DNA from: a virus
IMG/VR virus record: IMGVR_UViG_3300047678_000272
Location: 1-26,810 of that record
Strand: one strand, 5' to 3'
Length of the DNA: 26,810 nt
Below are positions 24,499 to 24,675 of this stretch, in pieces. Within the stretch, counting starts at the first letter, position 1. Each line of letters starts with the position of its first letter. The translations under genes and the position numbers were made by a program. The notes under the pieces were generated by a model. It saw nothing but the letters and a program-made list of their open reading frames with translations, ran no database searches and was not told the DNA's origin.

Positions 24499-24675
24499 CG
24501 GTATGCTTTCGGTGTGGTGAACCGAGCCTCCCTTAGAAGGAGGTGTTCTTAGGAAATAAGATTGAAAAGTGGAATGGATTAGTCAGTCGACGGACGAAGC
24601 CTGGAAGCGAAGTAAAGCATGACAAAGTCAGGAGCGCTTCTGATAAAGTCTAGGGTTCAAATCCTCTCATACCGA
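24499..24675 (+). tRNA. tRNA-Leu (TAG) with large structured insertion in the variable region
   Basis: Acceptor CGGTATG/CATACCG, D stem TCGG/CCGA, anticodon stem CCTCC/GGAGG and loop CTTAGAA (TAG at 24534-24536). A normal Leu variable arm TTC-TTAG-GAA follows, but the T arm (GGGTTCAAATCC) comes only about 95 nt later. The extra segment folds: TTA-G-TCA (24579-24585) with TGATAA (24641-24646), enclosing GAAGCG/CGCTTC (24604-24609/24635-24640). The T stem itself has only about three good pairs. Confidence 0.72.

Follow-up and report, generated by a model that had tools for sequence, protein, structure and literature searches.

The locus at 24499-24675 on the plus strand of the window, that is, of the whole 26,810-nt stretch of viral DNA analysed here, may well belong to a new family of tRNA-like noncoding RNAs, 147-190 nt long, which some huge phages carry in their tRNA arrays as one copy per genome. 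In this reading, in which our confidence is about even, the RNA would be processed, would receive CCA, would keep its insert and would act as a tRNA mimic that does not decode. Comparative sequence evidence shows a conserved acceptor stem, a D-like hairpin with its loop touching the T loop, a second hairpin in which no anticodon is kept, and, splitting the T stem, an insert that bears stem-loop arms in the relatives. The family is previously unlisted and we found no Rfam family for it; in broad kind it is a tRNA-like noncoding RNA, together with YrlA, tmRNA and T4 rnaC, and a member of none of these. The titles and abstracts of the literature searched contained no description of such an RNA.

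Structure of the locus and its relatives

The 26.8-kb virus record carries at its right end a dense tRNA array mixed with GIY-YIG and HNH endonuclease genes, and a search of this record with the locus matched it once only. An acceptor, a D-like hairpin, an anticodon-like hairpin and a T arm, all listed in the initial annotation, were found at exactly 24499-24675, on the plus strand and with a total length of 177 nt. The 5' strand of the acceptor stem, CGGTATG (24499-24505), forms seven perfect Watson-Crick pairs with CATACCG (24668-24674), which is followed by the discriminator A73 (24675; 3' strand and discriminator, 24668-24675), CCA not being encoded. The D-like hairpin, TTCGGT-GTGGTGA-ACCGAG (24508-24526), has a 7-nt loop with G18G19; a D arm had been claimed here, and what is present is an atypical one, with a 6-bp stem and with C at position 8 of the RNA. 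Hairpin 2, CCTCC-CTTAGAA-GGAGG (24527-24543), previously taken for the anticodon arm, has a 5-bp stem and a 7-nt loop, and is followed by a variable-like segment, TGTTCTTAGGAAATA (24544-24558; family range 13-15 nt), as delimited in a five-member alignment (A4, see below).

The extra sequence had been described as a 95-nt insertion before the T arm; a long insertion does exist, but it is 92 nt long (24562-24653) and interrupts the T stem itself, after position 51 and before position 52. The 5' part of this stem, AGA (24559-24561), pairs with the TCT of 24665-24667, and the 3' part of the arm (24654-24667) consists of GG (24654-24655), the loop TTCAAAT (24656-24662), found in all members, and CCTCT. 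We place the extra sequence within the stem because the distant AGA, 92 nt upstream, and the local GG pair with CCTCT, whereas the TAGGG directly 5' of the T loop does not.

In the minimum-energy fold of the insert, a P3-like helix (24592-24651) pairs GGAC (24592-24595) with GTCT (24648-24651), and a P4-like stem (24603-24641) pairs GGAAGCG (24603-24609) with CGCTTCT (24635-24641) and is capped by TGAC-AAA-GTCA (24620-24630). This arrangement is similar to that of the relatives, with whose inserts the window insert has little sequence in common. In fold energy, the insert alone does not surpass shuffled sequence (z -0.41) and the whole locus reaches z -1.82 against shuffles; the earlier description of the insert as structured thus depends on the relatives and not on its own fold energy. 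Folded without constraints, most members do not take the tRNA-like form at minimum energy.

Relatives were sought by scanning viral contigs with a pattern for the D-like hairpin, and the first independent copy was L005, in a 364-kb contig. Pattern scans later added L036 (24 kb), L079 and L080 (366 kb), and copies identical to L079 are carried by L065, L068 and L075. In all, there are five distinct sequences, the window and four others, those from contigs of 24-366 kb. Further relaxed pattern scans of viral contigs gave no additional members. Among the pattern hits, L006, L007, L085-L089 and L092-L099 were rejected as unrelated, having neither T arm nor acceptor, as were nearly all the other hits of the later scans. 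A search with the ribonucleotide reductase protein of L005 retrieved relatives, none of them with the RNA.

Members are surrounded by tRNA genes, with which they share the strand, and tRNA-Lys genes adjoin the RNA in L005, L079 and L080. The relatives have in common hairpin 2, the variable segment of 13-15 nt and an interruption of the T stem by 65-105 nt, at a point identical in all five members, as well as the D-like hairpin, whose conservation (five of five) is partly due to ascertainment, given that members were found by patterns in that hairpin. The acceptors differ between members, each pairing with itself.

A covariance model (R1) was built from L079, L080 and L005, leaving out the window and L036. 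It matches both of these over their full length, with 58.1 bits (E 9.2e-12) for the window and 59.0 bits (E 5.3e-12) for L036, the next-best hit in the 293 kb searched, many ordinary tRNAs included, being of 14.3 bits. Among 16 whole records, R1 finds exactly one copy in each of G001, G002, G003 and G004, and none in T4, fHe-Yen9-01, LR756502 or LR745206. Given that the model was made without the window, the match indicates that the window locus is beyond chance.

In alignment A4, which holds only five sequences and was fitted to the very structure used for counting pairs, 93.7% of the cells are paired and 20 of 35 pairs show changes on both sides; these values were reached by none of 500 shuffles, and slid controls were at most 50% paired. 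Compensatory changes occur in the acceptor (6 of 7 pairs), in hairpin 2 and in P3 (helix 5) and P4 (helix 6) of the insert, which covary in the relatives. Likewise, T-stem pair 51/63 is A-U in the window and G-C in the relatives. At the contact between D loop and T loop, four members have G19-C56 and L079 has A19-U56, an exchange that supports a real tRNA elbow in the predicted fold.

These comparisons also bear on the idea of a tRNA pseudogene in decay, which insertions would have scrambled within an array rich in homing endonucleases and tRNA fragments. Decay would be in keeping with the partial and duplicated tRNA pieces and the GIY-YIG/HNH genes nearby in the array of the window, and with an insert that folds like shuffled sequence. 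It is nevertheless improbable, in view of five distinct phages that agree in architecture and insertion point, of the compensatory changes in acceptor, hairpin 2, P3 and P4, and of the full-length R1 match to the window (E 9.2e-12).

The anticodon-like loop and the fate of the insert

ARAGORN called no tRNA at 24499-24675, and the Rfam tRNA model (RF00005) retrieved nothing there, either at its gathering threshold or with E values up to 5. More generally, and tRNAs elsewhere excepted, no Rfam family matched the window locus or the loci of L005, L079 and L080. The family RNA does resemble class II tRNA-Leu (RF00005) in its acceptor stem (of the tRNA type, with 7 bp, and covarying), T loop, D-loop/T-loop contact and long variable segment, as well as in its location in tRNA arrays and in the CCA that, as in the neighbouring tRNAs, is not encoded. 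It departs from tRNA-Leu in position 8, which is C, in the six pairs of its D-like stem, in the 65-105 nt that divide its T stem and in having no consistent anticodon loop, and it gives no match to the tRNA model.

A 7-nt hairpin 2 loop with U33 and a valid Leu anticodon (UAG) occurs only in the window, the other four members having 6-nt loops (CGATAA, AATGGA, AAGAAA and TATAGG) without U33 or a consistent anticodon. The stem of hairpin 2 covaries, but neither the length nor the sequence of its loop is kept as in an anticodon loop. The UAG of the window is probably a coincidence, because the loop is of six nucleotides in four of the five members. A leucine identity deduced from the anticodon was rejected, as this anticodon is not kept in the relatives, and the name tRNA-Leu in the initial annotation is therefore not upheld: it suits only the window, the sole member whose spliced form is called as a tRNA. 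As judged from these sequences, the family RNA probably does not decode codons.

The main rival to our reading, because each of the five members keeps a core of 82-85 nt once the insert is deleted in silico, is a tRNA with a long variable arm and an intron between T-stem positions 51 and 52, whose removal would yield a mature tRNA of 82-85 nt, Leu(UAG) in the window. Deletion also restores the T stem, as AGAGG/CCTCT in the window and as AGGGG/CCCCT in L079 and L080, and ARAGORN then calls tRNA-Leu(tag) for the window; moreover, the insertion point is the same in all members. We nonetheless consider splicing unlikely. ARAGORN calls nothing in the insert-deleted forms of the other four members, where 6-nt loops stand at the site of an anticodon loop, and arms P3 and P4 of the insert are kept by covariation. 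The archaeal-type splicing endonuclease (PF01974) was found in none of the eight phage records searched, and RtcB (PF01139) only in G008, a record without the RNA, both searches covering phage records only. Inspection by eye did not give a consistent bulge-helix-bulge at the junctions, which have a few complementary bases in the window and L036 but not in L005 or L080, and this motif was rejected. At 65-105 nt, the insert falls short of the size of known self-splicing introns of group I or group II, and no Rfam intron matched the window locus. Were the insert spliced out all the same, this would point to an unknown way of splicing tRNAs in bacterial viruses.

Retention of the insert as an extra arm is favoured as more economical than its removal, and it is most likely that the insert is such an arm, because it occupies one T-stem site and has stem-loop arms of its own. 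We also considered the insert as a mobile piece, and rejected this because the locus has a single match in its own record and the site is identical in all relatives.

Four of the five members, all but the window, carry 8 self-complementary nucleotides, AUGCGCAU or UGUGCACA, in the loop of the insert arm. The insert loop of L036 is GAUGUGCACA, and the three other relatives have an identical 14-nt loop, AUAGAUGCGCAUAA, on different stems. An enumeration gave 25 of 405 double changes that would keep an 8-nt palindrome. Such loops could let two copies pair by kissing, which is a suggestive, if weak, lead. A more speculative pair of explanations, to which we give rather little credence, would have the locus be either a phage tRNA mimic that dimerises with itself, using the palindromic loop on its additional T-stem arm to kiss a second copy, and that sequesters a host tRNA-binding enzyme, or a new type of very small T-stem tRNA intron in bacterial viruses, removed by an unknown mechanism.

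The same 14-nt loop could be thought to present a very short tag-reading frame in a reduced tmRNA-like RNA. As in tmRNA, the family RNA has tRNA-like ends and a long additional segment between the D and T arms, and the loop somewhat resembles AAUAAAUGCA, the resume region in the tmRNA of the same phage. Even so, we regard this as very improbable: no reading frame or stop is conserved, the loop is not kept in the window, and no SmpB-type D region, tag frame or pseudoknots were found in the family RNA. The tag was rejected on account of its unconserved frame. In addition, no Rfam tmRNA match was obtained at the window locus or at L005, L079 and L080, and a separate tmRNA is predicted in G001, at a locus (L011) that R1 does not match. 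This predicted tmRNA of the huge phage G001 spans 11992-12351 and has a 28-residue tag.

Known tRNA-like RNAs and the possible action of the family

Among known stable RNAs, T4 rnaC (species 1 RNA, Tevenvirinae) shows some likeness: it measures around 140 nt, is encoded beside a GIY-YIG gene within a phage tRNA cluster, and has both a T arm and a terminal helix that resembles an acceptor. Unlike the family RNA, it has a long central hairpin and an intact T stem and lacks the D-like GTGGTGA hairpin. The two share the string GGATATGGTT, but homology was rejected because rnaC relatives fold differently and because R1 finds nothing in T4 or in Yersinia phage fHe-Yen9-01. The family parallels the long-unexplained stable RNAs of phage T4.

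YrlA, a bacterial Y RNA (RF02553), is also noncoding and mimics the D arm, T arm and acceptor of a tRNA; its order is permuted, ending at the anticodon side, whereas the family RNA follows the tRNA order and ends at the acceptor. No hit of RF02553 exceeded the cut-off in any record searched, and a low-scoring overlap (24445-24548, 11.1 bits) spans a tRNA-Gly and the start of the family RNA. A role as Y RNA is not indicated for the three large contigs (G001, G003 and G004), because they have no Ro60/TROVE gene. TROVE (Ro60) domain genes were seen at 11237-12001 in G002, the 24-kb record of L036, which carries a family member, and at 241261-241959 in LR745206.1, from a 635-kb phage.

In the action that we propose, the RNA would be released from the transcript of the array as tRNAs are, and CCA would be added to its 3' end, the insert staying as an extra arm. 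All three large phage contigs with a member contain a gene of the CCA-adding-enzyme family (PF01743), which fits tRNA-like ends without an encoded CCA. The resulting stable tRNA mimic, with no decoding role, might bind a factor that handles tRNAs; it could, for example, be a scaffold, or a decoy for a host enzyme that targets tRNAs. The decoy role would seem reasonable, because phage tRNAs are described as helping to evade tRNA-targeting defences (PMC10264068, PMC11555353).

Phage tRNA clusters are read as codon supplements or as replacing tRNAs cut by host defences; a conserved, single-copy and apparently non-decoding RNA with the shape of a tRNA suggests that some members of these arrays do another job. 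Standard tRNA finders miss the family RNA, for which a defined structure and a search model now exist.

Other unusual elements in the arrays

Other genes of the window array also depart from the canonical tRNA form. Positions 23010-23145 contain a permuted tRNA-Gly(UCC)-like gene in which the anticodon, T arm and acceptor 3' half (CGAGCGC) come first, followed by a linker, TAATGT, and then by the acceptor 5' half (GCGCTCG) and the D arm. It is flanked by complementary sequences, TAAGAGT/ACTCTT and TTGTGG/CCACAA, and scores 23.1 bits with Rfam YrlA, below the cut-off of 69; it would be a permuted tRNA gene or else a Y RNA of the YrlA type. At 23157-23228 there is a weaker outer element similar to that of this gene. 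At 19112-19241, a tRNA-like gene missed by ARAGORN has normal acceptor, D and T arms, a Met-type loop (TTCATAA) and ca. 55 extra bases between the D arm and the anticodon arm.

The region 19250-20150 contains a tRNA-Pro with a 7-bp variable arm, whose 3' end, CGACTCCCTCACTCCTGA, reappears around 20131, on the far side of a minus-strand ORF (19412-20095), a layout that would suit the insertion of an element with duplication of its target. A GIY-YIG/NUMOD gene (24841-25617) has on one side a truncated DUF4031-like copy (24690-24790), whose 17.8 bits fall below the cut-off, and on the other an intact copy (25617-25822), and the GIY-YIG genes at 23369 and 24841 have upstream sequence in common. 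Outside the window, two tRNA-like genes of a 642-kb phage (L002, 4332-4411 and 4413-4497) have no normal D arm and contain 23-nt variable segments with D-loop-like sequence. Finally, positions 14520-17680 of the window encode an apparent ABC transporter set, formed by an OmpA-fused NMT1/THI5-like binding protein, a permease-like ORF and an ATPase.
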